From IMG/VR virus record IMGVR_UViG_3300023179_000236, positions 1 to 39,749 of that record: a stretch of 39,749 nt of DNA. One strand, written 5' to 3'. The translations under genes and the position numbers were made by a program. This document shows positions 1 to 39,749 of the stretch, in pieces. Every line of letters begins with the position of its first letter. Position 1 is the stretch's first letter. This stretch comes from a virus. The notes beneath the pieces are model-generated. The model was not told the origin of the DNA. It saw only the letters and a program-made list of their open reading frames with translations, and made no database searches.

Positions 1-137
1 TGCTTAAAAGGGTCACCTTGAGCCGCTATATTAGCGCCGATACCAGCTAGCTTTTTGTCATTATTCCAGTTTTCGGGGTCAAATATGTTTATGCTTTGCA
101 AAAAACTACCCATCATTTTTGCTGGGGAATAATTCTT
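1..137. repeat. Terminal direct repeat, left copy (circle-closing overlap)
   Basis: These 137 bases recur at 39614-39749. The two copies are identical except for one base in a G run: GGGG at 124-127 here, GGG at 39737-39739 there. A repeat this short lying inside a structural gene is best explained as the overlap of a circular or circularly permuted genome, not as a biological terminal repeat. Only the left version keeps the tape measure reading frame open across the join. Confidence 0.93.
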
Positions 138-1448
138 GAAATCTAAAGCCTCTCTTATAGACTTTCCTAGGTTCTCAAAAGCCTTGACCGTTTGGTTAAC
201 ACTTACAACCATTATATCAGCCCAAGTAACCGTCACCCCTTCAACTAACTTCATCTCTGCTTTAACTAATTGCAATAAGCCCACAACACTTAATAAGGCT
301 GCTGCAACAGTAGTACCCACAGCAAGGCCAGCAGCAGGGCCACCCACTAAAGCAGTCGCACCACCTACACCAATACCAGCCGCAATAGCCGCCACACTAC
401 CAATAATGCCGCCCGCTATAGGCTGTAATGACCTTAAGCTATTGGCAATCATCTGGATGCCTTGGTTAATCCCAAAGGTGACACTTTCCACATCCTTACT
501 AGAGCCAATAAGCTCTACAAATGAGTTATTCAATGAAGTCATAGCCCTATCAAAAGATATCGGCATACGGGCAAACTCAGTATTAATCTTGTTGGTGTTT
601 TTTAAAATAGCCTCAAACACTTCAACGTTAGTAATCTTGCCCTGCTTAACCATTCGGATAAACTGGCCCGATGTCATCCCCATGCCGTCTGCAATCTTAT
701 TAACAAGCACGGGCATTGTATCAATAATGCTTCTAAACTCCTCCATCTGAACAATAGGAGAGCCTAGCGCTTGGCTAAACTGCAACAAACCATCTCTCAT
801 CTGTTCATTAGATGAGCCACCAATAACCCCAATTTTAGCTACAAGGTCAGTAAGCTTTAATAACTCAACATTAGAGCGCCCCAAGTCTTTTTGGGCTATC
901 CCTAGGCGCTGAAACAGCTTTAAACCGTCCTCAATAGATACACCCGTTTTACTGGATATAGCAATTAACTCTTTTTGAACAGCAACATAATCACCTGTAT
1001 CATGTACTACGTTTTTAACCCTAGCGCTCATCATTGCCATACTGTTAGAAGCACCACCAATAGCAGAAATTAATCTTCCAGCGCCTAGGGATGTCACAAC
1101 AGCACCTAAACCAGCCGCTAACTGGCTCATACTAGAGCCAGCCCTTTGGGCCTCAACACTTGCAGCCTCTAATTGTTGTTTTAACTTAGCATTAGCCATT
1201 GCAAGCTTTTGTGTTTCTAGCGCTGCCTTTTCCGCACTAGCACGCATCTTGTCCATACGGTTAGAAGCCAATACAAGCTTTTGGGCGTTTTCCTCTGTCC
1301 TTAGTGAAACAACTTTTTGAGACTTGGTTAGCTTATCCGCACTTTTCCCAGCCCCGTCAGTGGCTTTCGCTAAATCGTCTAAAGCTTTTTCAGCTTTTTT
1401 AGCCTTACTAGAGTCTATCTCATACTGTAATTTAATTAAATCACTCAT
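1..1448 (-). CDS. Tape measure protein, N-terminal part (continues at 39749)
   Basis: The ATG at 1448-1446 overlaps the stop of the upstream tail chaperone frame (ATGAGTGA). The frame stays open to base 1 and continues across the circle join into the segment at the right end, giving a protein of about 1067 aa. The first 110 residues are Lys/Ala-rich, charged and coiled-coil-like. Around residues 195-280 there are motifs typical of the tape measure N-terminal domain: GGSSNEQMRDGLLQ, QFSQALGSPIVQMEEFRS and FIRMVKQGKITNVEVFEAI. A Gly/Ala-rich hydrophobic stretch is encoded at about 300-440. The protein should set tail length, pass through the tail tube and help DNA cross the inner membrane. The split is an artefact of where the circle was opened. 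Confidence 0.93.
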   Translation of the reverse strand, partial: MSDLIKLQYEIDSSKAKKAEKALDDLAKATDGAGKSADKLTKSQKVVSLRTEENAQKLVLASNRMDKMRASAEKAALETQKLAMANAKLKQQLEAASVEAQRAGSSMSQLAAGLGAVVTSLGAGRLISAIGGASNSMAMMSARVKNVVHDTGDYVAVQKELIAISSKTGVSIEDGLKLFQRLGIAQKDLGRSNVELLKLTDLVAKIGVIGGSSNEQMRDGLLQFSQALGSPIVQMEEFRSIIDTMPVLVNKIADGMGMTSGQFIRMVKQGKITNVEVFEAILKNTNKINTEFARMPISFDRAMTSLNNSFVELIGSSKDVESVTFGINQGIQMIANSLRSLQPIAGGIIGSVAAIAAGIGVGGATALVGGPAAGLAVGTTVAAALLSVVGLLQLVKAEMKLVEGVTVTWADIMVVSVNQTVKAFENLGKSIREALDFKNYSPAKMMGSFLQSINIFDPENWNNDKKLAGIGANIAAQGDPFK

Positions 1449-6463: not shown

Positions 6464-7137
6464 TATTGTTTTTCTCCTACAACTTGTGCGAATAACTCAG
6501 GATTAGAAAGCGCCGCTTTAGCAATGGATTGCTCCACAGTTAAACTAGCGTCAGCATCACGCAAGCTTTTAGCGATGTCCTCAATCTGTCCTTTAGAGTC
6601 ATCAGTAACAGCTTTAGCGATACCAACAGGCTTAACCAAAGTTGCAAACGCTTCATTAGCAGACTTAAGCAATTCTGTGAAAGCCGCTTTGGACTCATCA
6701 GAAACAGCCTTTTCAACTTCGTAAACAAGCTCTACAAGCTTATCGCTTTTAGCAATCACGTTAGGCAATTCAGTAGCCACACGCTTTTCGATAGCAGCAA
6801 TCTTGTTAGCTTTTTCAAGTTCAACTAACTTTTTCTCAAGGGTCTCAACAGAGCTAGCTTTTTCTAAAGCTTCCTTGTTGGCTTTTTCCAAAGCTTCCAC
6901 TTGCGCTTGTGCTTTTTCTAAAGCTTCGGCTTTTTCGTTAGCCGCCTTTTCTAAAGCTTCAATCTTTTCGTTAAGTTCCATTTTCAAGATATCCTCATCT
7001 TTGGTAACAGGGTTGTTTTTACTAACTATATCAAATCGCTTGAATAAAACCATTTCAGCTTCCTGATTAGCGGGGATGTCAACCAAGCTAATCTCGTTAA
7101 CGCTTATCTTGTTAAATATTTTAGTCTTTGTACTCAC
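6463..7137 (-). CDS. Head scaffolding protein
   Basis: A 224-aa protein. The first 30 residues carry VNEISLVDIPANQEAE, which resembles the C-terminal tail region of XkdF-like prohead proteases. Then comes a long Ala/Glu/Lys coiled coil with repeated EALEKA units (about residues 55-120), and a mixed C-terminal half with a charged helical end. Coiled-coil proteins between protease and capsid genes are scaffolds that guide prohead assembly and are then removed. It overlaps the protease gene by 17 bases in another frame, so the protease-linked tail and the scaffold may derive from one ancestral gene. Confidence 0.83.
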   Translation of the reverse strand: MSTKTKIFNKISVNEISLVDIPANQEAEMVLFKRFDIVSKNNPVTKDEDILKMELNEKIEALEKAANEKAEALEKAQAQVEALEKANKEALEKASSVETLEKKLVELEKANKIAAIEKRVATELPNVIAKSDKLVELVYEVEKAVSDESKAAFTELLKSANEAFATLVKPVGIAKAVTDDSKGQIEDIAKSLRDADASLTVEQSIAKAALSNPELFAQVVGEKQ

Positions 7138-7522
7138 CAGAACCTCCTATGCTAGCGGCTGCCAGTTTACCGCTTTTAACTAATCCCCACACTTTATCAT
7201 CATGAACTTTCATAACAACTAACCAGCCTTCAAAACCTAGGTCAATGCCAAGGGCTTTTTGTAGCTCGTTAGTAAAAAACATAGACTCAACCACATCACT
7301 AACCTTAATAGGTTCTTTTGACTCGTCATCTTTTAAATGCATTACGCCACCAGTGCGCTTGTTTAAAATAAACTCATGGGCAGCCGATTGCATGGCTTGT
7401 GTTTCAATAGAGTGGCCTTGTTTATCAATAAGTAATTCACCACCCTTAGTCGTTACACTTGCCCATACATAAGCTAACCGCTGGTCTTCATCAAAGCTTT
7501 TTAAAACTTGTTGTTCCATCAT
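7121..7522 (-). CDS. Prohead protease, XkdF-like
   Basis: A 133-aa protein of the XkdF / Peptidase S78_2 type. It has the signature regions DKQGHSIETQAM followed by the helix AHEFIL, MHLKDD, VVESMFF, GWLVVMKVHDDKVWGLVKSGKLAAASIGG. In this group the His of the MHL segment and the Ser of the last segment are candidate catalytic residues. It likely matures the head by cleaving scaffold and/or capsid. The start overlaps the Mu F-like gene stop by ATGA, with AGG a few bases upstream. Confidence 0.85.
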   Translation of the reverse strand: MMEQQVLKSFDEDQRLAYVWASVTTKGGELLIDKQGHSIETQAMQSAAHEFILNKRTGGVMHLKDDESKEPIKVSDVVESMFFTNELQKALGIDLGFEGWLVVMKVHDDKVWGLVKSGKLAAASIGGSGEYKD

Positions 7523-9794: not shown

Positions 9795-11267
9795 TTAAAT
9801 GATACCAAACCCACCGTCCATAACAATAGCAGCGCCCGCTTTTTGTTCAATCCGTGCTTTTAAATAAGATAACGCTTGCGTGGTAGCGTCCACTTGGTCA
9901 TCGTGTTTTGATGCTGGAAACATCGTTAGTTCACCCACATAATCAGCAACCCATGAGCGCCCTTCAGGTACAAACACTTTGCCCGCTTCAAATAAAGGTG
10001 AGACAAGATTAACCCGTTCTACCTTAGAGTGGCCCATGCTTTTACCTGGGGTCATAGGCAATACTGGCATACTAGTGGAGCGCTTAAAATCTTGCAATAA
10101 TTGCTGCCCGCTTGCTTTATCCTCTATTAACACAGCGGTTGAGGGATTAGCCTCATAATGCGTTTGCACCAGTCGTTTCAATTCAGGGTATTCCATCTTG
10201 CGCTTGATATTTTCAACTAAGTAATAGCCGTTAGCACATTCTGCCCACAATTGCCCACAACTAAAGTCATTGTGCTGGCCCTCTTTTATAGCGGTATCCC
10301 ATGACCACACATAGCGCTTAACAACAGGAAGCTCATTATAGTATTGCAACCAAGCTACCTTAATTAAACTACCCTCTGCTGGTGCTGGTCGTTGCTGCAA
10401 CTGCCCTGCTATACCGTATGACCCTAGTTGCAATTTAAGCTTGTTAATCTCCTCTAAGCCCTCACGTGCTGGCCATAACAACTCACCTTCCTCTGTGCGG
10501 GGGTCAGTAAACCCTAAAGAAGATACACACGGGGTCGGGTGGTTTAACTCATATTCTTGTGGGAAGCAAAGCACATCCCAATGCACGCCCTTACTTATTT
10601 GTGACTCGTAAATGTGCCCCACAAGGTCATTAACGTGCAAACGCTGCATAATCACCACAAAAGCGCCTGTTTTCTTATCGTTTAAACGAGTGCTTAACGT
10701 GTTATCCCAATACTCTACAGCGCCCTCTAATTTTAAGAGGCTTGAAGCGTCAGAGGCATTTAAAGGGTCATCCACCACGATTATATCGCCACCTTCACCA
10801 GTAGTTGCGCTACCCGTGGAGATTGCCAGCCTATAGCCTGTCTTGTCGTTTTCAAAGCGCATCTTTTGGTTTTGGTCAGAGCTTAATTGATAGAGATTAC
10901 CCCAACGCTCCTTATACCAATGGGAATCAATAAGCCGCCTACACTTAACAGAGTCACGCACAGTCAACCCTTGCGCATACGTTGAAAACATCCACTTAGT
11001 AGTGGGTTTGAACGTCCACACCCACGCAGGCCACAACACAGATACCAATAAAGATTTCATGTGCCTTGGGGGGATGTTGATAATCAGGCGTTTAATCTCG
11101 CCACGGCTTACAGCTTCTAAGTGGTCACAAATAGCGTTAATGTGCCAGTTTTCTTTAAAATCTACACCTGGCTCTATAACGTGCCATGCTTGTTTCACAA
11201 AATTAGAGAAGTTTTGACACTCTCTACGGCTTAACTCTAACTCTACGTCTTTAAGGGTTGGCAACAT
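9795..11267 (-). CDS. terL: Terminase large subunit
   Basis: A 490-aa protein counted from the ATG at 11267; a longer GTG start at 11279 lies deeper inside TerS. ATPase part: Walker A-like PPRHMKS at about residues 66-72, an adenine-binding region around TYAQGLTVRD, Walker B IIVVDDP at 162-168. RNase H-like nuclease part: acidic residues in WSWDTAIKEG (D324), IEDKASG (E382/D383) and KHDDQVDA (D456/D457). It packages DNA into proheads and cuts concatemers. It overlaps the TerS gene by 17 bases. Confidence 0.96.
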   Translation of the reverse strand: MLPTLKDVELELSRRECQNFSNFVKQAWHVIEPGVDFKENWHINAICDHLEAVSRGEIKRLIINIPPRHMKSLLVSVLWPAWVWTFKPTTKWMFSTYAQGLTVRDSVKCRRLIDSHWYKERWGNLYQLSSDQNQKMRFENDKTGYRLAISTGSATTGEGGDIIVVDDPLNASDASSLLKLEGAVEYWDNTLSTRLNDKKTGAFVVIMQRLHVNDLVGHIYESQISKGVHWDVLCFPQEYELNHPTPCVSSLGFTDPRTEEGELLWPAREGLEEINKLKLQLGSYGIAGQLQQRPAPAEGSLIKVAWLQYYNELPVVKRYVWSWDTAIKEGQHNDFSCGQLWAECANGYYLVENIKRKMEYPELKRLVQTHYEANPSTAVLIEDKASGQQLLQDFKRSTSMPVLPMTPGKSMGHSKVERVNLVSPLFEAGKVFVPEGRSWVADYVGELTMFPASKHDDQVDATTQALSYLKARIEQKAGAAIVMDGGFGII

Positions 11268-11649
11268 CAGGCGCAACACTTGCCTTAACCATTAACGCTT
11301 GAAAAGTTTTCAACTCCTCATTAGTTAGCTTGCTTAAATCAAACTGGCCGCCATTTATAAACCCACTATGCTCAATCTTTTGTTTTTCACTAAATCCAGC
11401 CCGTGTTTTAAGCCAAAATATCTGGGCTGTGGTGTCTCCTAATTTAGCCTTATTATAAAGCGAGTTTGCAATAACAGCGTTTGCTTTTATACGGCCTTCC
11501 TCTAGCTCAACCTTGTAGTACTTTGTCAACGTATCGGACGATATACCAAGTAAAATAGCAATATCCTCATAACGAGTACCCATAGCAGAATGAGATTCAA
11601 CAAGTTTTAAATGCTCTTCTGTGCGCTCATAAGGTACACCGCTAGTCAT
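11251..11649 (-). CDS. terS: Terminase small subunit
   Basis: A 132-aa protein directly upstream of TerL. It has an N-terminal helix-turn-helix (about residues 20-55: MGTRYEDIAILLGISSDTLTK), the helix pattern NSLYNKAKLGDTTAQIFWLKTRAGF, which is highly typical of phage small terminases of this group, and a short C-terminal tail. TerS recognises viral DNA and recruits it to TerL. The start overlaps the stop of the ParB-like gene by 8 bases (ATGACTAG). Confidence 0.9.
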   Translation of the reverse strand: MTSGVPYERTEEHLKLVESHSAMGTRYEDIAILLGISSDTLTKYYKVELEEGRIKANAVIANSLYNKAKLGDTTAQIFWLKTRAGFSEKQKIEHSGFINGGQFDLSKLTNEELKTFQALMVKASVAPDVANP

Positions 11650-12235
11650 TGATTAACTCCGCCTTTTGGCCGTCCATAAGCTTTTCAACATCAGTAATAC
11701 TTGTAGCATCCCCGCACATTAACCTGTGATTGCCCAACTGGTAAACATCACCCAACTTACTAACAGCCTCTTTGGGTGGTTCTGGCACATCATCCTCATC
11801 CGTTAAAGGCTCTAACACCTCAACAGCCAACGGCTCAAAGTCTAAGTTAATAGAGTCGCTTATAGCGTCATAATCAATATCATCTATAAATAAATCGAAA
11901 CTTTCCTGTGTAATATCGCCATGCCTTGACGATGCCATTAAAACAAGCTGTTTATCGGCTTCCATATCAGTTGCCCTAATAGAAACAATAGGCAAACTTG
12001 GTATTAACTCACCCTCAGCCTCAAGCTCTAATAACGCCTTAACACGCCCAGCGCCATCAATAATATAATCATTCCCAGCCCAAACAAAGAAAGGGAAACA
12101 AAACCCTTGCTTCTTTATAGCAGTCTTTAATACCTTAACATCCCTATCATCTACAGGTTTTAAATCATTAGCCTTTAGGGCTTTAATCTTATCCCAAGCC
12201 AACACATCACAACCAGTAACCCTAACGTTTATCAT
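11642..12235 (-). CDS. ParB-like nuclease-domain protein, truncated ParB/DNA methyltransferase
   Basis: A 197-aa protein. The N-terminal part (about residues 15-100) is a ParB/Sulfiredoxin-like domain (LKPVDDRDVKVLKTAIKKQG, DYIIDGAGRVKALLELE). The C-terminal segment LGDVYQLGNHRLMCGDAT and the end EKLMDGQKAELIND match the linker that normally leads into the DPPY motif of ParB-methyltransferase fusion proteins common next to phage terminases. The gene ends just where the catalytic motif (NDPPY) should begin, so no methyltransferase domain is left. It may still bind or nick DNA, or be a leftover of a module exchange at the TerS boundary. Confidence 0.85.
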   Translation of the reverse strand: MINVRVTGCDVLAWDKIKALKANDLKPVDDRDVKVLKTAIKKQGFCFPFFVWAGNDYIIDGAGRVKALLELEAEGELIPSLPIVSIRATDMEADKQLVLMASSRHGDITQESFDLFIDDIDYDAISDSINLDFEPLAVEVLEPLTDEDDVPEPPKEAVSKLGDVYQLGNHRLMCGDATSITDVEKLMDGQKAELIND

Positions 12236-18517: not shown

Positions 18518-18558
18518 AGTTGTGTCCCTATCCATTTGACTAGGCCACTACTAACCAA

Positions 18559-18566
18559 AAACTTTG
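18559..18566. promoter_or_regulatory. Isolated iteron copy in the initiator leader
   Basis: A perfect AAACTTTG, identical to the array units, lies about 42 bases upstream of the initiator start codon and downstream of the predicted leftward promoter. Binding of the initiator here could repress its own synthesis. A chance match is possible because the octamer is AT-rich. Confidence 0.4.
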
Positions 18567-24957: not shown

Positions 24958-27900
24958 TTAAACTGATATTGCTTTTGTGTAAGTCATGCGAGTGCCTGCG
25001 TAAATAGTTGCTGTATTGCTGGTTACAGTTGCACCTTGCAAGGTGATGCTCCCTGCATTTACGCCATTAACCACACGAAAAGTCATGCGGAATGTAACTT
25101 CAACCCCTATGCCTGTGGCAAAAGTTGTGCCAAGTGTATTAATTGCACTTATTAATGAAGGTACTGGTGCGGCAGCAAGAGTTGCTCCACCGAGATAGGC
25201 TTCCCCTTTAATTGTGCATCCTGTTGGGGCTGCAATAGCTAATTTCATACCTGTTGCAGTTGTAGCTTTTGATGCCGTCCCTTCAATAACCACTGTGTAG
25301 ATTTCATTAGCAGCAATAGCAAAAGTAAGATTAGTGCTAACAGCGGTTGTGCTTGCGGTGTTAAAGTTAGCGGCAAGCACTTCAGACCCACCCTTTTGAC
25401 GCAACTCCATTTCATCGTAAACAGCATTTTTAGAAGGGGCTTGCGTTGTAACACCGTTCCAGCTTGAAGCATAAGCAGTATCAGAGCATATTAATGGTGA
25501 CCACGCTCCACCACTATTTTTGCCTTCAACAACCCCTGCATTATTGCGAAGCCCATAGCCAGTTGTGCCAAGCGTCGTTGAAAAATTTAAATAATCACCC
25601 CCATTAATCTGCATTGTCCCAAGGGTGCCAGTGTAACGTATACCAGTATCGCAATTAATTGACCAAGAAGTGCCCGTATCTCCTTTTGATGATTCAGCAT
25701 AAGTTTGGGCGTAGTATGTTTGGTCAGTATCCCCATTAAAATACAAGGATGTATTTAGATATGTACCTAACGCATCAATAGGAGAATCTGATATTTGAAG
25801 ACCGCCAGCTTTTATATTTAACGGAACACCTAGGTTTACTGCACCTCTGGCAACCCCAATACTTACTATGCCTTGGTCAAAATGCCCTGCAATATTTACA
25901 GAACCGCCTGATGCACTAAAATATCCTGCAATATTATACGATGACGTACCTGTGTTCGTTACCGTTGAGTACAAGCCGTAAGAAAGATGATTAGCATTTG
26001 CATTTGTACCAGAGCGTGCACTATTAAGCATATAAGTTGTACCACTAGCATCTCCCAAGCCGCTGGCACCCGTAAGTGTAACCATAGCGCCTGAAGCCAT
26101 TGCCCTTGAAACATCTAAAACTGGAGCGTTATTAAGAGCCCCAATAAGTTGAGTTCTACCCGTAACACTAAGCGCATAGGTTAATGACCCCGTTATACTT
26201 AGGTTTGCAGACGGGCTGCTATTATTGATGCCTATAGCATTTGCACTAGCATCAACAAAAAGGGCGTGAGTTAATCCTGTTGTTTTTACTCTGAAGTCAG
26301 TAAATGTTGTTTGCTGCCCATTAATTACAACACCATTTGAGCTATCCCACTTAAACGCCTCTGTATTAGTTGAACCACTTTGGAGTACAAAACTATTGAA
26401 GCTATTATCAGCATCGGTTGTGCCAAAAGTTACGTTTGAGGGAGATATAGCATATTGCTGTGTTGTTCCGTCAAAGAATGACCAACTGCCAGCGCCATCC
26501 AAAGTAAGTTCTTGCGAGCCAGAGCCAAGTCTAAAATCCCCACCTGTCAATTTAAGACTATTAAGTGAATGCGTTAAAACAACATCGCCATTATTCCAAT
26601 TAATTACCCCACCAGAGGCAAGAAACAAATCGCTCCACATTTTGGTGGTGGAGCCAAGCGCTCCCCCATCTGATGTGCCAAGTAGTAAGGACGTGTTAAT
26701 TGCTGTTGTACCGAGGTTTGACAGTGTAGTGTTAGCGCCTACATCTATAGCTAAATCACCAGTGCCTAAAATAGAACTACCGTTAATAGTTTTAATGTTT
26801 GTGCCTGATACAAGACTTGCTTGCTTGCTATCTAGTGCAGTTTGCAATCCCGATGTTTTCGCAATAGACAGCGCCGCATCGGCAATAGATGTAGCGTTGC
26901 CAACAGATGTTACCACACCCGTTAAATTGGCATTTGTGGTGACTGTGCCCGCTGTTAAGCCCGATGCTGTACCCGTTAAGTTTGTGGCTACACCTGAAGA
27001 CGGAGTGCCAAGTGCGCCACCATTAACAACAACTGAGCCAGCAGTTCCAATATTTACGCCAAGGGCCGTTTGCACACCTGTGCCAAAAGTAATTGCTGAT
27101 TGTTTACCGTTAAACGTGTTCCAATCGGCACTAGTTAAAAACCCTTTTTGGCTTGTAGTTGCAGCTTGCCCATTTGTATAGTCTATAGAAACCACGCCAC
27201 CAGTAGCGTTAAAATCACTGGCAGTAAACGTTGCCGCACCTTTAGTTGTTCCATCAGCCGCCGCATCGGCAATAGATAAAGTACGGTTTGCGGATAAGTC
27301 ACCACCGCCGCTCAATGGGGCCGTTGTACTAATCGTTCTTGCGGGCTGAACAGCAGTATTAGCAAGACCAAGGGAAGTATTAACCCCAGCATCAAGCTTG
27401 CCTGATGCTATAGAACTAGCCACAATGCTTGCCGTGATACTTGGCGTAGCGTCGTTATATGTAAAATCCAATTCACTTGAATCAACTAAAATTGAACCAA
27501 CAGCATCTTGGGCACGCTCATCCGTAAAATACAGGTTAGTGTTTTCAGTAACTTGTGATGTATTGTAGTCTCCGCTGGTAGCCACAACAGTGCCTGTGCG
27601 ACCAAACACACTAGATACACCTGTTACCAATGCGGCTATATTGCCTACAACTTTTTGGAAAGCTTGCAAGATAGTGTCAGTTGCCGCAACCGTACCAGCG
27701 CCAGCGGTAAACCCAGTTAAAACCTTACCAATAACAGCAGCATTAGAAACTGTTGTCGTTATTGCTGTTGCACCTGAACCACTAACTTCTCCAGATAATG
27801 TGATTGTTTGGTTACCCGTTAAATAGGTGTTTGTGTCAATGGATAACGTGCCATCACCACCAGATGTTTTGACAAAGCCATTACCAGTTAAGTTGCTTAG

Positions 27901-29655
27901 CTTTGCAATGTTTTGAGTAGTGTTTACAGTAATTGTATTAATTGAGCGGGTTAAACCAGTTGAGAATGTTAATGCATTTTCTTTGCTATTAAACGTGTCA
28001 TAATCTGCTTTCGATATAGTCCCCGATGTAACACCTATGGTGGATGCTAGGGGTATATTTAAAGTGTGTGTTGATGTTGCGCTTGTGAAAGCAGGTGCTG
28101 TTCCTGCAGAGCCTGTAGCAAAAGTTTGAGTTGCCGCTGTTAAACCACCAAGTGATGTTATTGCTGCTGTTAAATAGGTGCTGTTGTCATAAGTAATTGT
28201 CGTTCCCGTGGCTTTAACAAAGCCAGTGCCATTTAATTGTGCTTGCTTGCCGTTAAAGGTGGACCAGTCGGCACTAGACAAAGCGCCTCTACTAGAAGCC
28301 GATGCCGTAGGCACATTAAGTGTAATAACTGGTGTTGTAGTGCCATTAGCTACCGATGAGCTTAAATCTGTGCCTGTAGTCCCAAGGGTAAGCGCCGCAA
28401 CCGATGTGACTGTGCCACCTGAACTAGGGGAGGTGTTAGTTACTGTGAAATTGGGGTAAGTACCTGTTACGCTAATCCCTGTTCCACTGGTTAATGCAAC
28501 TGTTTGGTCTGGGGCAGTGTTAGTAATGGTTATTGTGTCTGTTGTGGCGTTTGTCGTTATAGCAATCCCAGTACCATTAGCCAATGTTAAAGTGTCCGAT
28601 GTGCTATCAGCTATCACATTAGATTGACCAGAAACAGCAATAGTAGAGAATAAATTTTGGTCGCCTGTATTGGTACCACTAGTGTTTTCTATAACCGTTA
28701 ATTGGGCATCAGTTACATAACGCTTGTCTACACTAGATGCAATATCCGCTGTTGTTGCATCAGCCCCAGCAGTAACTAATCCTTTTGCATCGTAAGTAAT
28801 CTTAGTTTTAGTTGCCCCAGTTATTGCGCTATTTTTATCGACTTTATTATCAAGCCCTGTCTTAAGTAAATTAACGGTTGGATACTTTGTGGTGTCAGTG
28901 TCTATTGTTGTGTTTTCTTTATTACCTGCATTTTCAGGGGTGTAACCTAAAGCGGGTTGCTTGCCATTAAGTTGTGTCTGTATAGAGCTTGTGACCCCTT
29001 TAACATAACTAATCTCAGTTAATGAAGGATACGTTGCGGTGTTTAAAGATGTTAGCGTCTTACTTGCCCCTAGCGATAACAACGTATTGGCCGTACCGTT
29101 ATCGTAGTTCCACCCGCCGTACAGTGTGCCATTAGCACCACCACCAGAACCATAGTGTAATACAACTGTGTCGTTATTCGTGCGCAATTCACCACCAGCG
29201 CTACTTGATGCTTTTACTATTGGGGTAGTTACGCTAGTTGAAAAAGCAGGGTTGTTTATTGTGGATACTGCTGGATTGGCTGGGTCTGTATTGTCTACTG
29301 TTATATTTGTGCCACCTGTAACGCTTTCAACACCACCACCGCTGCCATTAGCCCATACAGTGTCATAATTAGCATTGCTAGCCTTTTTAAGAACTTGGCC
29401 AGTTGTGCCACCCGTAGGCACGCCTACACCAGCAATACCCTCATTTAACCCTAAAACAATGCTAGTGCTTTCAACCGCAACAATAGGATTACCACTGCTA
29501 GAGATAACAACACTGCTTGAACTAACAACGCTTGTGCTCTCAGTTTGCCCACTTTGCTCAATTACTAAAACAAAAGGACTCTCAGTAGCGGCAAAGCTCC
29601 CATTTGTGCTGTTAATAACCAGCACTTCATTAGGTTGCTCAATCTTAACGCCCAC
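24958..29655 (-). CDS. Large repetitive tail fibre / adhesin-like protein
   Basis: A 1565-aa protein, rich in Thr, Ser, Asn, Gly and Ala, with few charged residues. It contains repeated units of the kind 'ADW.TFNGKQ' (for example SSADWSTFNGKQ, TSADWNTFNGKQ, KADYDTFNSKE), each followed by a short beta stretch, as in long trimeric fibres of phages and bacterial adhesins. The middle is beta-rich, and the last 150 residues form a distinct end domain (FTIVIEG-type strands, TGCTIKGEAYLGG, FRMTFRVVNG). No S74 peptidase motif was seen. It probably binds the host surface and follows the BppU-like and assembly genes of the fibre module. Confidence 0.8.
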   Translation of the reverse strand: MGVKIEQPNEVLVINSTNGSFAATESPFVLVIEQSGQTESTSVVSSSSVVISSSGNPIVAVESTSIVLGLNEGIAGVGVPTGGTTGQVLKKASNANYDTVWANGSGGGVESVTGGTNITVDNTDPANPAVSTINNPAFSTSVTTPIVKASSSAGGELRTNNDTVVLHYGSGGGANGTLYGGWNYDNGTANTLLSLGASKTLTSLNTATYPSLTEISYVKGVTSSIQTQLNGKQPALGYTPENAGNKENTTIDTDTTKYPTVNLLKTGLDNKVDKNSAITGATKTKITYDAKGLVTAGADATTADIASSVDKRYVTDAQLTVIENTSGTNTGDQNLFSTIAVSGQSNVIADSTSDTLTLANGTGIAITTNATTDTITITNTAPDQTVALTSGTGISVTGTYPNFTVTNTSPSSGGTVTSVAALTLGTTGTDLSSSVANGTTTPVITLNVPTASASSRGALSSADWSTFNGKQAQLNGTGFVKATGTTITYDNSTYLTAAITSLGGLTAATQTFATGSAGTAPAFTSATSTHTLNIPLASTIGVTSGTISKADYDTFNSKENALTFSTGLTRSINTITVNTTQNIAKLSNLTGNGFVKTSGGDGTLSIDTNTYLTGNQTITLSGEVSGSGATAITTTVSNAAVIGKVLTGFTAGAGTVAATDTILQAFQKVVGNIAALVTGVSSVFGRTGTVVATSGDYNTSQVTENTNLYFTDERAQDAVGSILVDSSELDFTYNDATPSITASIVASSIASGKLDAGVNTSLGLANTAVQPARTISTTAPLSGGGDLSANRTLSIADAAADGTTKGAATFTASDFNATGGVVSIDYTNGQAATTSQKGFLTSADWNTFNGKQSAITFGTGVQTALGVNIGTAGSVVVNGGALGTPSSGVATNLTGTASGLTAGTVTTNANLTGVVTSVGNATSIADAALSIAKTSGLQTALDSKQASLVSGTNIKTINGSSILGTGDLAIDVGANTTLSNLGTTAINTSLLLGTSDGGALGSTTKMWSDLFLASGGVINWNNGDVVLTHSLNSLKLTGGDFRLGSGSQELTLDGAGSWSFFDGTTQQYAISPSNVTFGTTDADNSFNSFVLQSGSTNTEAFKWDSSNGVVINGQQTTFTDFRVKTTGLTHALFVDASANAIGINNSSPSANLSITGSLTYALSVTGRTQLIGALNNAPVLDVSRAMASGAMVTLTGASGLGDASGTTYMLNSARSGTNANANHLSYGLYSTVTNTGTSSYNIAGYFSASGGSVNIAGHFDQGIVSIGVARGAVNLGVPLNIKAGGLQISDSPIDALGTYLNTSLYFNGDTDQTYYAQTYAESSKGDTGTSWSINCDTGIRYTGTLGTMQINGGDYLNFSTTLGTTGYGLRNNAGVVEGKNSGGAWSPLICSDTAYASSWNGVTTQAPSKNAVYDEMELRQKGGSEVLAANFNTASTTAVSTNLTFAIAANEIYTVVIEGTASKATTATGMKLAIAAPTGCTIKGEAYLGGATLAAAPVPSLISAINTLGTTFATGIGVEVTFRMTFRVVNGVNAGSITLQGATVTSNTATIYAGTRMTYTKAISV

Positions 29656-29656
29656 A

Positions 29657-30007
29657 CTAAACCGCTCCTAGTACAGGTATTTCACCCCTAATAAAAGGTT
29701 CTAGCTTGCTATTTTTAACAGCTTTTAAATCAAACAGCAAGGCCGTCACACTTAAATTGGTCTCACTAGGGTCTAGGTCGATTGTAATAACACCACCAGC
29801 GCCACTATGTGAGCAACTCTTGTTAATTAAATAGCTTGAATCTGCTGCATTTTCTTTAGCCACTAAGGTAAACGTGTAGCCCGTTAAATCTCTTGCAGTG
29901 GCTTGCGTTTCATCAGTGTAAGCGGTCAAAGTGATATTGTAGCGCTTGTTCAGCTCCATAGGTGGTAGCGTTACTTTTGTTCTATCAAACTTTTTAACAA
30001 CAGCCAT
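29657..30007 (-). CDS. BppU-like baseplate/fibre-attachment protein
   Basis: A 116-aa beta protein: LPPMELNKRYNITLTAYTDE, then FTLVAKENAADSSYLINK, then a Gly-rich loop and LDPSETNLSVTALLFDLKAV. This resembles the N-terminal domain of BppU (phage baseplate upper protein), which links receptor-binding proteins to the tail tip and has the pattern 'T.....D..G.tf.l..........s..l...........L.......G.Y.yel'. It ends 2 bases before the fibre gene, suggesting it anchors that fibre. Confidence 0.62.
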   Translation of the reverse strand: MAVVKKFDRTKVTLPPMELNKRYNITLTAYTDETQATARDLTGYTFTLVAKENAADSSYLINKSCSHSGAGGVITIDLDPSETNLSVTALLFDLKAVKNSKLEPFIRGEIPVLGAV

Positions 30008-30577: not shown

Positions 30578-31519
30578 TTATAAATCTCCTAAAAAGACAA
30601 CATCGGCATAATCAATATCACCCAAAGCGCCGCCGCTTAAGTTTACACAGCTAATCTCACAAGCGGTTGTTGTTGGGGCAGTTGTTGTTGTGCGCCCTAC
30701 TAGCCTTGTGGAAACATCAGAGCCAGTAACATTGTAAGATGACCCACTAACAATATAGTTAGCCGAACTAAAAGCCGTTGTAAAGTTTGCCGTGATTCTG
30801 CCAACGTTAGTATCTGTTAAGCTACTAATGCCCGAACTAATAAGGGTTGTAAATGAGCCATTATTATCACAACTAAAAGCAGCTTTAGGGTGTAAAGGGT
30901 GGAAGTGTTGCCGCCCTGGGGATACATAAACACTTGTGGAGCTGGCCGCTTCCATGTCTGCTTGACTGGCAGCGCTTAAGCTTGAGCCACTAGGGTTTTG
31001 AATTAGCATGTCCGTGCCGTCATAAGCCAGCAAATAAATGCCGCCGCTTAAAATAGCGTTAGTGCCTAGTGTTGCGCCTGAATTATCTTTAATCGTCTTA
31101 GCACTCAAACCGTTAAAAGAGATTGTTGCGCTACCCGTATTACTAAAATTAGCTTTAATTGCTACAACCTCACCCGTAGTGTAAGTTGTTCTAGCAGGGG
31201 AAAAGGCAGCAGTGTAAGCGTTTGAACTGCCCGCCGTTTGTATATAGTTTGTTGACCAGTTTTGAAACAAAGCGTTTGCAGGGCTAAAAACGTTAGTGGT
31301 GGCATTAACGTACCCCAGCAAAATGTCGTCCGTGCCGTCATACATGTACAGTTCCCACGGAGTGGCAGAGTTTTTAAGCCATACTGTGCCAGCCGCCGCA
31401 TAACTTGGCCGAGACGCACCGCTATGGGATGATAAATAGTTTGTGTTTTGGCCATTATGATTTGAGGCGTAAGTTGTCCCCGATAAAGTATCGTTTATAA
31501 CCATTGTATTTTGTGACAT
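30578..31519 (-). CDS. Tail fibre-like protein
   Basis: A 313-aa protein, Ser/Thr/Asn-rich and beta-prone. The N-terminal 60 residues describe a capsid-like repeat start (NTMVINDTLSGTTYASNHNG). The middle has the line SQADMEAASSTSVYVSPGRQ, common near the collar of short tail fibres in prophages, followed by the His-rich HFHPLHPKAAF. The C-terminal half is a beta barrel-like end. It starts right after gene J, so it probably joins the tip. Confidence 0.72.
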   Translation of the reverse strand: MSQNTMVINDTLSGTTYASNHNGQNTNYLSSHSGASRPSYAAAGTVWLKNSATPWELYMYDGTDDILLGYVNATTNVFSPANALFQNWSTNYIQTAGSSNAYTAAFSPARTTYTTGEVVAIKANFSNTGSATISFNGLSAKTIKDNSGATLGTNAILSGGIYLLAYDGTDMLIQNPSGSSLSAASQADMEAASSTSVYVSPGRQHFHPLHPKAAFSCDNNGSFTTLISSGISSLTDTNVGRITANFTTAFSSANYIVSGSSYNVTGSDVSTRLVGRTTTTAPTTTACEISCVNLSGGALGDIDYADVVFLGDL

Positions 31520-34500
31520 CTAGTTTACACTCCCATAGCCTTTAGCTATCCAGTCATAATTTCTACTAATACCTGTGCCCGCACTATTAAAGAATCTTAC
31601 TGTAAAACCTGTTCGACTTTGAGCGGTTACAGTGCAATAATCACCAGTAGCAAGGTTATTGCCGCTTATACCAATAGCAGGGGTTGCTTTAAATGCAGGG
31701 CTAAAAGTTATCGTATCACCAGCGGCGTTACTTGTTAAATTGCGATTACTTGCAACACGGTCAGGCATATCTATTGTAACACCCGCCTCACTTACAACAG
31801 GCGTTACACCATACTCATAAGAATACAACGCAAGCTTAAACCTAAACGCCCTAGCCGTATAATCGCCAACAATAAAAGCACTATACCCGCTCCATGTCGG
31901 TGAACCACTAGGATTATCGTTTGTAGTAGAGACCAGCAACGTTACACCCCAGTTAGAAACATTAGCCCCGCCCCATGAACTAACGCCACTAATAATAGGC
32001 CATGTGCCAACTGTGTTAAGCAAGTTGTCACCAGTTGCCAAGATATTTGAAGTCAAACGGCTTGTGTATACAGCCCCTAAGTCAATATAGCCAAGGCCAC
32101 TACAATCAAAATCATAATAACCAACATCAGCAAGGCCAGCCGCACCAATACCCCAAACACCAATATCACTAATTAAAGGCCAGTCACCTACAGTATCAGC
32201 ACCTGTTAATCTTAAAGCACCACTATTAACCCCTGTGTCTGTTTTAGTGCCCGCCCATGTGGGTTGCTCGGTTATGGTTTCAACTACATTAAGCCCCTCA
32301 ATAACAGCCACGTTAGAGCTAATAATAGCTTCATTAACACTATAAATGCCGCTAGTATCCACCGCCTTAATTAAGTAACTACCAACCATTGCAGGCACGG
32401 CCACGCTTTGTTGATTAGAACTAACACGGTCAACCAATAACTGACTAGCAGCCCATGACGGGCTAGCGTCCGTAGTGTACTTAATCACATAATGGCTTAA
32501 GTCTAAGTCTGCAACAGGTAGCCAACTCAAGTTTGCATTGCCACCAATAACGCTCATATTAAAACCAGTTACATCAGCAGGGGGTGACAACAAACCCGAT
32601 AAACTAAAAGAGCGGATTGCTTCAGGTGAGCGCTGGCCATTAAGCCCATTAACACCCACCACTTTTATGGTGTAATCACCCGTCAATGTGTCCAATAAAT
32701 CAATACTTGTGCCCTTGGTCTCACCTATAAGTTTATAAGTCACATCACCTGGACCAATATAACTAACCTCATAATAATTAACCCGTGCATCATCAGGTGG
32801 CAACCATGAAACAGTTACAGCGCTTTTAACGCTTGGCCCTGCCTTATAAAGAAACTCGCTATATGAGATATCACTAGCAGGCAATAAAACGCCACTTCTA
32901 AACGACGTATAAACAGGCTTAATTAACTCTAAGTTTTGCTCAATGCGTGCATACTTAGTAGGGTCATGGAATAAAGCTGTGATATCATAACGCAACTCAT
33001 CCTTTTCAACTACAGAGATAACTCTAAACTTCCTAGGCGCTAAAGCGGTGCTGGATAAAATCCACATAGCCCCATTAACAGGGGTGTCAGGTAGAGCGCT
33101 TGCAAACGTCAACACGCTAGCGCTGCCAGCACTATTGTTTAACACTCGCTCTTCTAGGCTTCCATCAGGCATGGTGATTGTGAGGGTGTAGGTTTCGAGA
33201 CTAGAGATTGTAACCGCCTTATCAATCGTTACGCTTGTTGTTGTAGCTGCTACAGCACGTCCGCCATAACGTAGTGACATATAGGCGGGGTCTGCAACAC
33301 TAATAATCTCACCTGGGCGCAAGTCTATCATATCCAAGCTGCCAACAAAATTAACGGTCTCGGTCTCACTCTTTTCGCTATCAAGTATCCAGCGCCCAAA
33401 GCGTACCGCTTGACCTTCACTTGTGCAACCAAAGGCCACCACATCAATAGGATTCCACCCATATTGATTAATAGAGTCCTTGTCTTCTACCACGGCTATA
33501 TTGAGCTTATAGTTTTCGCTAGGGTCATTCCAGCTTACAAGGGCAACTGTATGGCGTGCCTTTTTACCCGTACCAGAATAATTTAACAAGCCGCCCTCAA
33601 CGTTAGCAGGTGTAATCAACTTGGCAGGGTCACTAGGTGAATCTTGAGTACAAGTTACCGCACCACTAGCCCAATATCCCATCCCTCTAAACGAGCTTGT
33701 CACCGCACTAATAACGTTAAAAGCTTCCTCCTGCGTGTTAATAACGCCGTTAAAAGTAAAACGGGGCTCAGTGCCACCAAAGCCGTCATCTACCAACTCA
33801 TCACAGTATTGAGCAATTGAATACAAGGCAAACTTATCTACTTGTGCAGCTGTAATATGTCTACCAAGCCCCCAGCGGGGGTTGGTTAATAAGCCATAAA
33901 GTACCCATGCGGGGTTATCAGTGTAAGCCGTGGTAAACGTGCCCGTCCACACGCCTGTATAAACCCTTGTCACAGGGTTATAGTTGTCAGGTATTTGAAG
34001 CAATAAGCCCTTTACCTCGTAAGCACGGCTAGGCGCATCACTTCCAAACTTTTGCGAGTCTAGCGTGATACCCGCTAACGCACAATAAGGATAATAAGGC
34101 TTAGTGTCTATTAGCGTGGCAAAGCTTGAAAAGTATATTTCATTTTGTAGGGATGACACGGCGGCATCTGCTGTGATTCTAGTTAATCTGATATCCCATG
34201 GGCCAGTGCCTTCTAGTTCAACCCTGTAGCTTTCCTCATAAGCACCCGATTGTTTACCGCTAATGGTGATATAAGAGGGTGTTGCCTCCTCAAACTTGAT
34301 TAACGTACCGCTAACCACTTGTATTTCATAGTCATCAGGCGTTAAATCACTCACATAAAAAGAAGCACTTACTTGCTCGGTATTATCAGGCTGGCCATTA
34401 TAAGGGAATGGTTGGCTTATTTTCTGTGTTACCGTACTTGAACCCAATTGAATCCATGAGCCTGCCCCAACAGCCCTATAATTAACTTCAAAATTAGCGC

Positions 34501-35077
34501 TTTGGGTTGAACCAATAGGCCCGTTAATGTTTTTAGATAACGTAACCCTAATACCAGCCGCCACATTGCTAGTTGTTGTACCGCTTGCAATAGTTGTCCA
34601 CTCATAATTGACTGGGGCTAGCTTGTAGCTACCACCATTAGGCTTAACTTCTATCTTAAACTGTACACTTGTGCCCGTGATGTCACCCGTGGCCGTATCT
34701 TGCCTAAACAAGGCAGGTAAGCGCACCGTCACCCTTGCAGCATCAGCACTTAATTGTGTAACCGTTCTCACTACAGGGGTGGATTGCGTAACTTTAACAC
34801 CCACACCCACTTCACTTTCAATATAAGGAAAACCCTTTAGCGCATCCTGTACCGCATCACCGTTTCTGGTCTCAACGCTAACCCCTTGAAAGTTAAACGT
34901 CCCATCGGCATTTTGTAATGCTGTATCGTTCAAATAAATGCTTTGCAATCCATTAACAAGGCCACTAATTGGCCCTTCACCCAATAAATCAATAAGCCTA
35001 CCCGTTGCCCTAGACTGTAAGCTGTTTTTAGTTTCAACAGGAAGCCGTTGCGCTGGCTGTTTAGGTGCGCCGCCCAT
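31520..35077 (-). CDS. Central tail tip fibre protein (gpJ-like host specificity protein)
   Basis: A 1185-aa protein encoded after tail assembly gene I, in the place of lambda J. The N-terminus reads KNSLQSRATGRLIDLLGEGP then ISGLVNGLQSIYLNDTALQN, a line highly typical of this family. A central part has fibronectin-like repeats (for example PPADVTGFNMSVIGGNANLS) and DxW-type strands; the final 250 residues form a phage-specific receptor-binding end. It closes the tail tip and contacts the host receptor. Confidence 0.92.
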   Translation of the reverse strand: MGGAPKQPAQRLPVETKNSLQSRATGRLIDLLGEGPISGLVNGLQSIYLNDTALQNADGTFNFQGVSVETRNGDAVQDALKGFPYIESEVGVGVKVTQSTPVVRTVTQLSADAARVTVRLPALFRQDTATGDITGTSVQFKIEVKPNGGSYKLAPVNYEWTTIASGTTTSNVAAGIRVTLSKNINGPIGSTQSANFEVNYRAVGAGSWIQLGSSTVTQKISQPFPYNGQPDNTEQVSASFYVSDLTPDDYEIQVVSGTLIKFEEATPSYITISGKQSGAYEESYRVELEGTGPWDIRLTRITADAAVSSLQNEIYFSSFATLIDTKPYYPYCALAGITLDSQKFGSDAPSRAYEVKGLLLQIPDNYNPVTRVYTGVWTGTFTTAYTDNPAWVLYGLLTNPRWGLGRHITAAQVDKFALYSIAQYCDELVDDGFGGTEPRFTFNGVINTQEEAFNVISAVTSSFRGMGYWASGAVTCTQDSPSDPAKLITPANVEGGLLNYSGTGKKARHTVALVSWNDPSENYKLNIAVVEDKDSINQYGWNPIDVVAFGCTSEGQAVRFGRWILDSEKSETETVNFVGSLDMIDLRPGEIISVADPAYMSLRYGGRAVAATTTSVTIDKAVTISSLETYTLTITMPDGSLEERVLNNSAGSASVLTFASALPDTPVNGAMWILSSTALAPRKFRVISVVEKDELRYDITALFHDPTKYARIEQNLELIKPVYTSFRSGVLLPASDISYSEFLYKAGPSVKSAVTVSWLPPDDARVNYYEVSYIGPGDVTYKLIGETKGTSIDLLDTLTGDYTIKVVGVNGLNGQRSPEAIRSFSLSGLLSPPADVTGFNMSVIGGNANLSWLPVADLDLSHYVIKYTTDASPSWAASQLLVDRVSSNQQSVAVPAMVGSYLIKAVDTSGIYSVNEAIISSNVAVIEGLNVVETITEQPTWAGTKTDTGVNSGALRLTGADTVGDWPLISDIGVWGIGAAGLADVGYYDFDCSGLGYIDLGAVYTSRLTSNILATGDNLLNTVGTWPIISGVSSWGGANVSNWGVTLLVSTTNDNPSGSPTWSGYSAFIVGDYTARAFRFKLALYSYEYGVTPVVSEAGVTIDMPDRVASNRNLTSNAAGDTITFSPAFKATPAIGISGNNLATGDYCTVTAQSRTGFTVRFFNSAGTGISRNYDWIAKGYGSVN

Positions 35078-36437: not shown

Positions 36438-36451
36438 ATTAAACTACTCCT

Positions 36452-36811
36452 ATGAATATCTACCTAGACAAGTTTATGAGCCCACAGGCTATTGATGCCT
36501 TCAACGTTCATTATAATGGCTTAAAGCTGTTTGTTAAACCTAAAAACATTAAAGAACACTTAGCCTTGCTATTAGTGGCTGGTGAGCTTTATTACACCAA
36601 GATTAGCGATATTCAAACAGAAAATAACATGCAGGGCCAAGCCAAAATGAAACTTCTCATTGAAGCCACTGCCCTAATGGCTTACATTCATGGTTCTATC
36701 GCCACCTATGCAGAATCTAAAACAAACTGCGGTATAACACCTAGCTACGATTCAATAGATAGAGAGTTGAGAGAGCTTTACAACAAGCTAACTGTTAATA
36801 AAATTAGCTAG
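36452..36811 (+). CDS. Unknown protein on the opposite strand inside the tail-tip operon
   Basis: A 119-aa, mostly helical protein (MNIYLDKFMSPQAIDAFNVH, IKEHLALLLVAGELYYTKI, LRELYNKLTVNKIS). It fills the whole gap between the L- and K-like genes and points against them, overlapping the L stop by 8 bases. The minus strand has no long frame here, so the gap exists because of this gene. Its codon use looks normal, but no ribosome site is visible. By place and orientation it is a candidate cargo (moron) gene; function unknown. Confidence 0.68.
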   Translation: MNIYLDKFMSPQAIDAFNVHYNGLKLFVKPKNIKEHLALLLVAGELYYTKISDIQTENNMQGQAKMKLLIEATALMAYIHGSIATYAESKTNCGITPSYDSIDRELRELYNKLTVNKIS

Positions 36812-37514
36812 TACGCCCAACGCCAGGGAAGCCACTAAAAGGCAGCTCACCGTTTTGGCCGTACCTTGCCCTACAACCGTCTAGCGTCTTACTACATCTA
36901 TCCAAGCTTGGGTTTGTAGTAGGTTGGTTAGCCTTAGTGAAATAACTAGAGCCACTATAAGGGCATGGTGTTAAAGCATCATACTCAAACAAGCCTGTTA
37001 CTGTGTTGTAATATCTATAAACCCATGTGCAAGCATCCCTAAGCACTTGCCGTGCTGGCAACTTTTTGCCCTCAACGTCCACGCTCGCCGCTAACTTAAA
37101 CTCTATTTCATTCTTATTCATTAGCGTTTTTTGTTCAACATAAAAGATATCTACAGGAAAAGTAGCTGTAGGGTCTGCACCAGCCATACCGTCTAAAAAC
37201 TCTGCTAGGGTTCTAATGCGTGTAATCTTAGCCCCAAGCAAGTCATTATAAGCAATAACGGCTGATGTCATTGTGTTAGTTACGTTGCTAAGTCTAAGCG
37301 TAGGCGTTGGTAATGAACCCTTACCTACCCACTCAAAGCCAGTGGCCTCAATATCAATTGGCGTATAAGTAATGCCATTAAACACAATAGGGCTTGACCC
37401 GTTCACCATGCTTGTGAAGTGGTAAACACTATCACCTAAAGCAGTGGCATCTAGCTCAAACAGCGTAATGACAGCAGAGGGCGCTAACCCCTGTATGGAC
37501 TCGTTTAAGGTCAT
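36804..37514 (-). CDS. Minor tail protein L-like
   Basis: A 236-aa protein of the lambda gpL family: start LNESIQGLAPSAVITLFELD, then GITYTPIDIEATGFEWVGKG, PTPTLRLSNV, and the Cys-rich C-terminal part with DACTWVYRYYN, LTPCPYSG, DRCSKTLDGCRARYG and FSGFPGVGR. In gpL the Cys cluster binds an iron-sulphur cluster. It forms part of the tail tip cone. It overlaps the M-like gene by 4 bases. Confidence 0.92.
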   Translation of the reverse strand: MTLNESIQGLAPSAVITLFELDATALGDSVYHFTSMVNGSSPIVFNGITYTPIDIEATGFEWVGKGSLPTPTLRLSNVTNTMTSAVIAYNDLLGAKITRIRTLAEFLDGMAGADPTATFPVDIFYVEQKTLMNKNEIEFKLAASVDVEGKKLPARQVLRDACTWVYRYYNTVTGLFEYDALTPCPYSGSSYFTKANQPTTNPSLDRCSKTLDGCRARYGQNGELPFSGFPGVGRTS

Positions 37515-37861
37515 AAATCAAATACTTCCTCAATAGTCATTGTAAATCCGTAAACATCAGGCCCTATTACCTGCACCTGCCACTCCTTACAGGTAAATTT
37601 ACGGCTAGAGCTTTCCCATGGCAGCGTGTACTCAAAAGGCAAGTAACCCGCCACCGTGGTTTCGCAAAAGGTGTTTAGTGTGCTTAATTGAGCGGATGTT
37701 AAGCCTCTAAAAACTAACTGGCCCTCACGCTTAATATAATTTAATCCGTCAGGCGCTCTTAAGTTGTAACCGTCGCCAAAATCTACACGGTTTACCCTAA
37801 CCTTTGGGCCTACACTTGTGCCATCACGGCTTGGATTAATAGGGGGGCTAAAAGTGGTCAT
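37511..37861 (-). CDS. Minor tail protein M-like
   Basis: A 116-aa protein of the lambda gpM / DUF1833-like tail tip family: FGDGYNLRAPDGLN, LVFRGLTSAQLSTLNTF, EYTLPWESSSRKFTCKEWQV and the end MTIEEVFDL. It lies between tape measure and L-like genes with 4-base overlaps on both sides, exactly as H-M-L-K-I-J in lambda. It connects tail tube and tip. Confidence 0.92.
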   Translation of the reverse strand: MTTFSPPINPSRDGTSVGPKVRVNRVDFGDGYNLRAPDGLNYIKREGQLVFRGLTSAQLSTLNTFCETTVAGYLPFEYTLPWESSSRKFTCKEWQVQVIGPDVYGFTMTIEEVFDL

Positions 37862-39749
37862 GCAAAGCTAAGCCCCTTGTTTAATAAACCGCCTGGGCGT
37901 TGCTGGTCTTTAATTTGACTCACAACCATATTCTTAAGGGAATTTGTAACTTCCTCACCAATCTTTTTAGCCATAGCGTCGTCGTCCTCTTTTTTACCAC
38001 TAGAGCCACCCGATACATTAACAGTTACATTGTTATTAACTACATTGCCGCCAGAACCGCCGCCGCCTAAAGCTTTAACGCCTAGCTTGCCGTTAGCCCC
38101 TCTAGTGAGCGGCAAAATAGCTTCGGGGCCAGCCTCACCCATTAAACCAGTGTTGCCACCAGCGTAACCAAAGTAAGTGGGTGAAGTTACCACCCCACCA
38201 GTAGCATAGCGCTTAGCACCACTAGGGCTAACAACAGCCCCATCAGCAGCCGTTAAACCGAACGCCTTACCAATAGCAGTGATAGCTTTCATAATCAATA
38301 ACTGAATAATAGCTTTAGCAATCATTTTAGCTAAGTCACCCATAGCTTGACTAAAGCTTTTAGCGCCAACAATGGCATCTGCAAAGGCATCTGCAAAGCC
38401 CTCTTTTATTGTGTTAGCCACTTGGGCCATTTCTTGCCCTTTAGCTTTGGCTATATCCGTAGCTCTGCCAGTGTTAAGGATTGCAATTTGTGATTTTTTC
38501 CATGATTCAGCATACTTAGACACTTCACCATTAAGGCCAAGCATCTTTTGGTATTGAGCCTCTATAGATTGCAGCGCTAAGTCTTGTTCAACATTAGCAA
38601 AATCAAACTGCCCTGTAGCAGGGTTTAAACCCATTTTAGCCCCGCCATATGCTGCCTCCTCACGCTTAGCAGCCGCTAAGGACTCATTAACCTTTATTAA
38701 TTCAGTTTCAGCAGCCGCCTTTTGCTCTGCTACGAATCTTAAAGAGTTGCCAAAAAACTCTTGCCGCTTTTTTAACCTTGTGGCTCGCTCCTCTTCTGCT
38801 TTATCTAATGCCTTAATAGCATCGGCGCTATCTTTAGCCGCTTTTAACTGCTTATAGTAAGACTTAAACTCTGCATCGGTAAGCGTTACACCTTCAGCAC
38901 GCAACATGTTCTCTGCTTCAATGATATTTTTCATATTCTCATAGCTGGCCTCAGATTCTTTTCTGGCCGCTAATAGGCGTTGCATACTCTTTATTTCAAG
39001 CTCTACTTTGTCAATTAGCTTTTGTTTTCTTTTTAGGGCTTCCTCATCAACAGCCGTTGCCGCCGCCCCAGTAACACCGCTAACAGGGATATTACCAGCA
39101 ATCTTTAACGCTCTATCTATTGTGCTTGTATTGCCAGCGTTACCGCCACGCATAATACTCATTAAATCTACTGGGACACCATTAATGCGGCGTTCAGCAT
39201 GTAAGTGTGGGCCACTTGAAGTACCCGTGTTGCCCGACAACCCAATTGATTGCCCTTGGGCCACCATTTGACCTACCTTAACATTAGGTTTAGATAAGTG
39301 AGCGTAAATATCAGTAACGACCTTATTGCCTTGCTTGCCTGCAATAACAATCTTTTGGCCGTAGCCGTCTTTAGCGTCACCCACATAAACAACCGTACCT
39401 GTTGCCCCAGCCGTTACATTAGTACCCACAGGGGCTGCAAAATCAGTACCCTTGTGCTTATGGGTTTTACGTTGTTCTCCAAAGACACCCGTAATACTAC
39501 CCATTACTGGCCTTATGTAACCCTCGCCTTGGGCCGCTTTCATTAACGCCGCTTGGCCTGTTTTATCATCAAGCATCTGTAAGCCACGCTTTGAGGCCCT
39601 ATCTATCAAGGCTTGCTTAAAAGGGTCACCTTGAGCCGCTATATTAGCGCCGATACCAGCTAGCTTTTTGTCATTATTCCAGTTTTCGGGGTCAAATATG
39701 TTTATGCTTTGCAAAAAACTACCCATCATTTTTGCTGGGAATAATTCTT
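37858..39749 (-). CDS. Tape measure protein, C-terminal part with M23 peptidase domain
   Basis: This is the C-terminal 623 residues of the tape measure protein (from the in-frame Met at 39729) plus the repeat overlap. About 75-190 residues into this part, roughly 517-636 of the whole protein, is an M23/LytM-type zinc endopeptidase domain with the metal motif HKGTD, a YAHL motif and the HLH motif (GPHLHAE). It probably cuts peptidoglycan during DNA entry. After it come a long Ala/Lys/Glu-rich coiled coil and a hydrophobic stretch. The C-terminus is of lambda-type tape measure style, with GLMGEAGPEAILPLTRG followed by a Gly/Asn-rich linker. It overlaps the downstream minor tail protein by 4 bases (ATGA). 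Confidence 0.93.
   Translation of the reverse strand, partial: ELFPAKMMGSFLQSINIFDPENWNNDKKLAGIGANIAAQGDPFKQALIDRASKRGLQMLDDKTGQAALMKAAQGEGYIRPVMGSITGVFGEQRKTHKHKGTDFAAPVGTNVTAGATGTVVYVGDAKDGYGQKIVIAGKQGNKVVTDIYAHLSKPNVKVGQMVAQGQSIGLSGNTGTSSGPHLHAERRINGVPVDLMSIMRGGNAGNTSTIDRALKIAGNIPVSGVTGAAATAVDEEALKRKQKLIDKVELEIKSMQRLLAARKESEASYENMKNIIEAENMLRAEGVTLTDAEFKSYYKQLKAAKDSADAIKALDKAEEERATRLKKRQEFFGNSLRFVAEQKAAAETELIKVNESLAAAKREEAAYGGAKMGLNPATGQFDFANVEQDLALQSIEAQYQKMLGLNGEVSKYAESWKKSQIAILNTGRATDIAKAKGQEMAQVANTIKEGFADAFADAIVGAKSFSQAMGDLAKMIAKAIIQLLIMKAITAIGKAFGLTAADGAVVSPSGAKRYATGGVVTSPTYFGYAGGNTGLMGEAGPEAILPLTRGANGKLGVKALGGGGSGGNVVNNNVTVNVSGGSSGKKEDDDAMAKKIGEEVTNSLKNMVVSQIKDQQRPGGLLNKGLSFA
39614..39749. 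repeat. Terminal direct repeat, right copy
   Basis: Right copy of the overlap described at 1-137, one base shorter (GGG at 39737-39739). Reading the minus strand from the N-terminal half with this version would reach a TGA shortly after the run. The missing base is therefore probably an end-of-contig error, though a real variant in the population cannot be excluded. Confidence 0.93.

Follow-up and report, generated by a model that had tools for sequence, protein, structure and literature searches.

Complete or almost complete elimination of restriction sites was reported by Rusinov et al. 2018 for about one tenth of viral genomes, mainly for non-temperate viruses and for sites of orthodox Type II systems (PMC6286503). 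For the phage K group, the fRuSau02 report describes a genome entirely devoid of GATC and attributes this to host restriction enzymes (PMC5618024). Haloviruses of the HF1 group entirely lack GATC and CTAG, show depletion of further palindromes and encode their own methylases, the target of which cannot be GATC (PMC7230728). Finally, GATC, CCGG and GGCC are underrepresented in most genomes of Streptococcus thermophilus phages, which was related to predicted Type II systems of the hosts (PMC12322248).

The window analysed here covers one virus record over its full length of 39,749 bp (positions 1-39749), in which exact counting returned 0 copies of GATC and 0 copies of CCGG, on both strands as the two words are palindromes. 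The earlier note on this DNA had described both words as apparently absent from the whole genome, which the counts confirm. The reference to a whole genome is likewise justified: the ends overlap by ~136 bp (left copy at positions 1-137, right copy at 39614-39749; BLASTN, 99.3% identity) and the tape-measure gene spans the record ends, and thus the record closes into a circularly complete genome of ~39.6 kb.

The proposed comparison of all 256 tetramers with a Markov expectation revealed that GATC and CCGG are the sole tetramers missing from both strands and that both lie far below expectation. For GATC, 54 copies were expected under a first-order Markov model and 93 under the maximal-order, strand-symmetric model (Markov range ~50-93), and for CCGG the respective values were 66 and 60 (range ~56-66). 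The strictest null consisted of 300 synonymous-codon shuffles, in which every protein and the codon usage were kept, and yielded 78.0±6.3 copies of GATC (minimum 61, z -12.3) and 56.8±6.2 copies of CCGG (minimum 39, z -9.2). The Poisson probability of observing no copy amounts to ~1e-34 for GATC and ~2e-25 for CCGG. The other palindromes named earlier as present were all recovered, with counts from 37 to 444 (GGCC 123, GCGC 134, CTAG 159, AGCT 237, CATG 97, GTAC 73, TCGA 37 and TTAA 444), and GGCC, AGCT and CATG matched the expectation under synonymous shuffling.

The description as a loss of two sites holds for GATC and CCGG and is incomplete as an account of the genome, as further sites are depleted as well. 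CGCG was found 4 times in the window versus ~61-65 expected copies (2 versus 61.7 in the synonymous shuffles), and GGWCC twice versus ~21-33 (20.7 by synonymous shuffles). Weaker depletion was observed for CCWGG (11 in the window; 10 versus 26.2 in the shuffles) and GTTAAC (5 in the window; 4 versus 18.2), and GGCGCC, with a single copy, is also depleted. Following the convention for site-eliminating phages, i.e. an observed/expected ratio (CB) under 0.1 for a site with 15 or more expected copies, GATC (0/54-93), CCGG (0/57-66), CGCG (4/61-65) and GGWCC (2/21-33) are classified as eliminated. The two GGWCC copies are located at positions 28261-28265 and 32751-32755, and the residual CGCG copies at 12537-12540, 18737-18740, 18879-18882 and 19825-19828, a clustering of only weak significance (P 0.025). 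The second and third of these CGCG copies, together with one CCWGG, fall within a non-coding divergent region of 533 bp (18536-19068), which is promoter-like and possibly contains an operator or origin. Neither DNA folding (z 0.14, nothing unusual) nor notable repeats in this region offered a reason for the retention of CGCG.

Inspection of codon choice revealed how the sites were avoided. The overall share of GAT among aspartate codons is 64%, yet it falls to 0 of 55 where the next codon starts with C. Isoleucine ATC never follows G (0/140), serine after NGA is encoded by AGY in 7/7 and by TCN in 0/7 cases, CCG precedes G in 0 of 29 cases, and no NCC codon stands before a GGN codon. At the protein level, Asp-Leu pairs (62 versus 57.6 expected) and Asp-Pro pairs (23 versus 24.0) are undepleted, and Pro-Gly pairs are low (10 versus 35.6). 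The site loss is thus mostly synonymous, with proteins largely retained and the DNA altered, which matches the prediction of selection acting on the DNA word. Silent replacement of this kind is the customary route by which lytic phages evade restriction by bacteria.

A close relative of the phage was not found, the best terminase large subunit match (terL; 9795-11279, minus strand) in the phage collection being Roseobacter phage CRP-902 with 49.6%. Two distantly related phages with largely different gene content share much of the missing set. The first, G001 (IMGVR_UViG_3300043409_000487, 57 kb), has head and tail genes only in common with the window, including a homologue of the tail tip protein J (31520-35077, minus strand; 49% over residues 9-770), and its genes contain (observed/expected) GATC 2/110, CCGG 1/85, CGCG 1/85, GGCC 0/86 and GGWCC 5/44. 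The second, G002 (44 kb), has no more than terL and ERF in common with the window and shows GATC 0/106, CCGG 0/55 and GGWCC 0/34. In contrast, a tail-module relative with a GC content equal to that of the window (L101) carries GATC, CCGG and CGCG at expectation. A panel of 78 loci, mostly fragments and some of them closely related to one another, was assembled with the homologue of the minor tail protein L (36804-37514, minus strand) as the query. At least one eliminated motif was detected in 30 of these 78 loci, with GGCC eliminated in 16/66, GTAC in 8/48, CCWGG in 8/45, CTAG in 7/49, GATC in 3/72 and CCGG in 1/52, the lone CCGG case being G001 itself. Elimination is therefore common in this tail-gene group, whereas the sets are lineage-specific and that of the window is uncommon. 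The recurrence of this set in G001 coincides with a tail tip protein ranking among the closest found, although any link between the two is post hoc and concerns one case. The window also harbours a large repetitive tail-fibre-like gene (24958-29655, 1565 aa) with adjoining accessory fibre genes (29657-30007 and 30578-31519). In five related tail-module contigs with 38-39% GC (L121, L134, L140, L141 and L151), GGCC and CCWGG are gone and GTAC is almost gone, with L121 additionally lacking TCGA, a set that points to a different host restriction repertoire.

GATC, CCGG, CGCG and GGWCC are known Type II specificities, and the strongest losses in the window all concern palindromes of this kind. Taken together, we consider it highly probable (roughly 0.88) that GATC and CCGG, and nearly all CGCG and GGWCC, were lost because orthodox Type II restriction enzymes, encountered across the host range, selected against them over a long time. 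Genomes bearing sites would be cut on infection by host enzymes of the MboI/DpnII type (GATC) and the HpaII/MspI type (CCGG), probably joined by further cutters of the FnuDII type (CGCG) and the AvaII type (GGWCC); variants carrying fewer of these sites would then survive until none were left. Restriction pressure is strongly supported by the silent codon choice, by restriction-type palindromes being hit hardest, by the recurrence in phages with different genes and by the lineage-specific sets, while the four CGCG and 11 CCWGG copies remaining suggest that those pressures were weaker, older or newer.

A non-temperate lifestyle is typical of site-eliminating phages, though not obligatory. When 37 proteins of the phage, most of them non-structural, were scanned against Pfam, no integrase or repressor was detected by homology; the matches comprised ERF, an M15 peptidase, a PDDEXK protein and two HTH proteins of the LuxR type; the HTH proteins form a tandem pair of small LuxR/GerE-type genes in the early region (22415-22633 and 22645-22875). 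The phage is apparently lytic and siphovirus-like. The complete loss of several short palindromes without detected lysogeny genes fits orthodox Type II restriction, and the lack of an integrase or repressor in the scan matches the reported excess of elimination in non-temperate phages (PMC6286503).

Scans of viral contigs with terL, major capsid, portal, head morphogenesis, Dam, J and tail-L proteins yielded no match close enough to name a host. A scan of genome contigs with J returned one match to a Methylophaga MAG (39%), and a terL search in 369 gammaproteobacterial genomes returned one match (47%) on a short contig (L105). Endonucleases above cut-off were detected in 4 of these 369 genomes for the DpnII family and in 3 for the HpaII family, and none of the 369 had both families above cut-off. 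This rarity counts against the pairing of the two enzymes in a host, in a sample that was picked solely owing to one weak match there.

Among the alternatives, the one that survives best involves the phage's own methylase, which would methylate GATC and thereby mark the DNA for a methyl-dependent host nuclease of the DpnI or Mrr type. A Dam-family DNA N6-adenine methyltransferase of 195 aa is indeed encoded at 15755-16342 on the minus strand (PF05869, E 1.8e-8, 34.7 bits and thus above the gathering cut-off of 28.1; phrog_111, E 2.6e-18; PADLOC orphan MTase), with the catalytic NPPF intact at residues 82-85 and invariant in four homologues, and GATC was found to be reduced in 46/46 phages whose hosts carry Type IIM enzymes for GATC (Rusinov 2018, PMC6286503). 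However, this reading leaves CCGG, CGCG and GGWCC unexplained, and G001 and G002 have lost GATC although a motif screen of their open frames, which is not a profile search, revealed no methylase motif. In addition, the GATC specificity of the enzyme is putative: the assignment to PF05869 and phrog_111 relies on remote similarity, and a family name does not fix the target. A search for a close solved structure of the protein returned none. The targets of the enzyme are most likely other motifs that contain adenine. We therefore regard marking by the phage's own methylase as improbable. The paradox raised by the earlier note, i.e. a Dam-type enzyme in a genome without GATC, is accordingly weaker than it looks, given the remote family similarity and the HF1-group precedent of methylases in genomes without GATC. 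The note's proposal of host systems cutting GATC and CCGG is partly supported: restriction pressure as such strongly, the particular host enzymes as putative agents, and the DpnI-type variant as the less likely general cause.

A second methylase-related gene at 11642-12235 (minus strand, 197 aa) corresponds to a truncated ParB-type DNA methylase (phrog_498, E 9.3e-28, profile positions 51-226 of 633). It retains the ParB-like N-terminal part and ends right before the catalytic DPPY, so that the catalytic domain is not present in this 197-aa protein; its stop codon overlaps the start of terS, which lies directly next to it. It aligns with 38% identity to the N-terminal part of a 404-aa methylase of Psychrobacter phage pOW20-A (L107), with which the window shares the gene order methylase-terS-terL. 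Judged by its sequence, the stump may work alone or may be a relic. It is conceivable, if doubtful, that ancestors first relied on a ParB-type methylase for protection and later purged the sites. The catalytic domain, no longer needed, would then have been lost, so that one defence against restriction gave way to another, of which the stump would be the remnant. pOW20-A itself has a gene annotated as integrase, and its ParB-type methylase is intact, yet it contains 3 CCGG versus ~61 expected (3 versus 41 in genes) and partly avoids GATC (38 versus 120 expected), and thus an intact methylase and avoidance can coexist. A Moraxellaceae host was considered on the basis of the methylase homologue and the CCGG avoidance of pOW20-A and was kept as a lead only, as this phage has no other gene in common with the window. 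A further candidate methyltransferase at 7121-7522 (phrog_1530, 'DNA methyltransferase') was rejected, since the match covers profile positions 235-352 only and the motif screen detected no methylase motif in the protein.

It is also possible in principle that a phage nuclease cuts host DNA at the missing sites and that the phage purged its own genome for self-protection. Two nuclease-like genes are available for such a role, a PDDEXK/RusA-like gene (21728-22234, plus strand; phrog_244, E 5e-17; PF24608 under its cut-off) and an HNH endonuclease (24256-24621, minus strand; phrog_2255, E 6e-8). However, homologues of both are absent from G001 and G002, which have much of the same missing set, four unrelated sites would not be recognised by one nuclease, and both proteins look like the common phage nucleases that serve in recombination or packaging, making self-protection highly improbable. 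The uneven dinucleotide use of the genome could be invoked for plain compositional or codon bias without selection on sites. This reading is refuted by the null that keeps codon usage (z -12.3 and -9.2), by the way in which the choice of Asp, Ile, Ser, Pro and Arg codons depends on their neighbours, and by the Poisson probabilities. Equally negligible is an assembly or library artefact, such as the loss of fragments at restriction sites, in favour of which nothing was found: the contig has no breaks, closes into a circle and codes for proteins along nearly its whole length, and where sites would arise the codons have been exchanged for synonymous ones instead of being deleted.

With host Type II restriction as the preferred explanation, the set of missing sites can be read as a record of which restriction enzymes a phage lineage has met and can help to predict the hosts of uncultivated phages. 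The joint loss of GATC and CCGG in three phages whose genes mostly differ, and its absence in a tail-module relative, suggests that hosts could be fingerprinted by the set of sites that a phage avoids.

The phenomenon as such is already known and has strong precedents, while the exact set of sites missing from the window is uncommon. The survey of Rusinov et al. covered phages with known hosts, unlike the phage described here (PMC6286503). Complete absence of GATC is shared with the phage K group, which, however, consists of unrelated, larger Staphylococcus myophages, for which the passage concerned mentions GATC alone (PMC5618024). The HF1 group resembles the window in having lost two palindromic tetramers while carrying a methylase, but comprises archaeal myoviruses in which the second site is CTAG instead of CCGG (PMC7230728). 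The same GATC/CCGG pair is affected in S. thermophilus phages, although as under-representation rather than total loss and in Gram-positive hosts (PMC12322248). The most similar pattern is that of G001, in which GATC, CCGG, CGCG and GGWCC are nearly gone and the tail module is related, and which differs in its 57-kb genome, the additional loss of GGCC, a negative motif screen for a methylase and a terminase without a match to that of the window.
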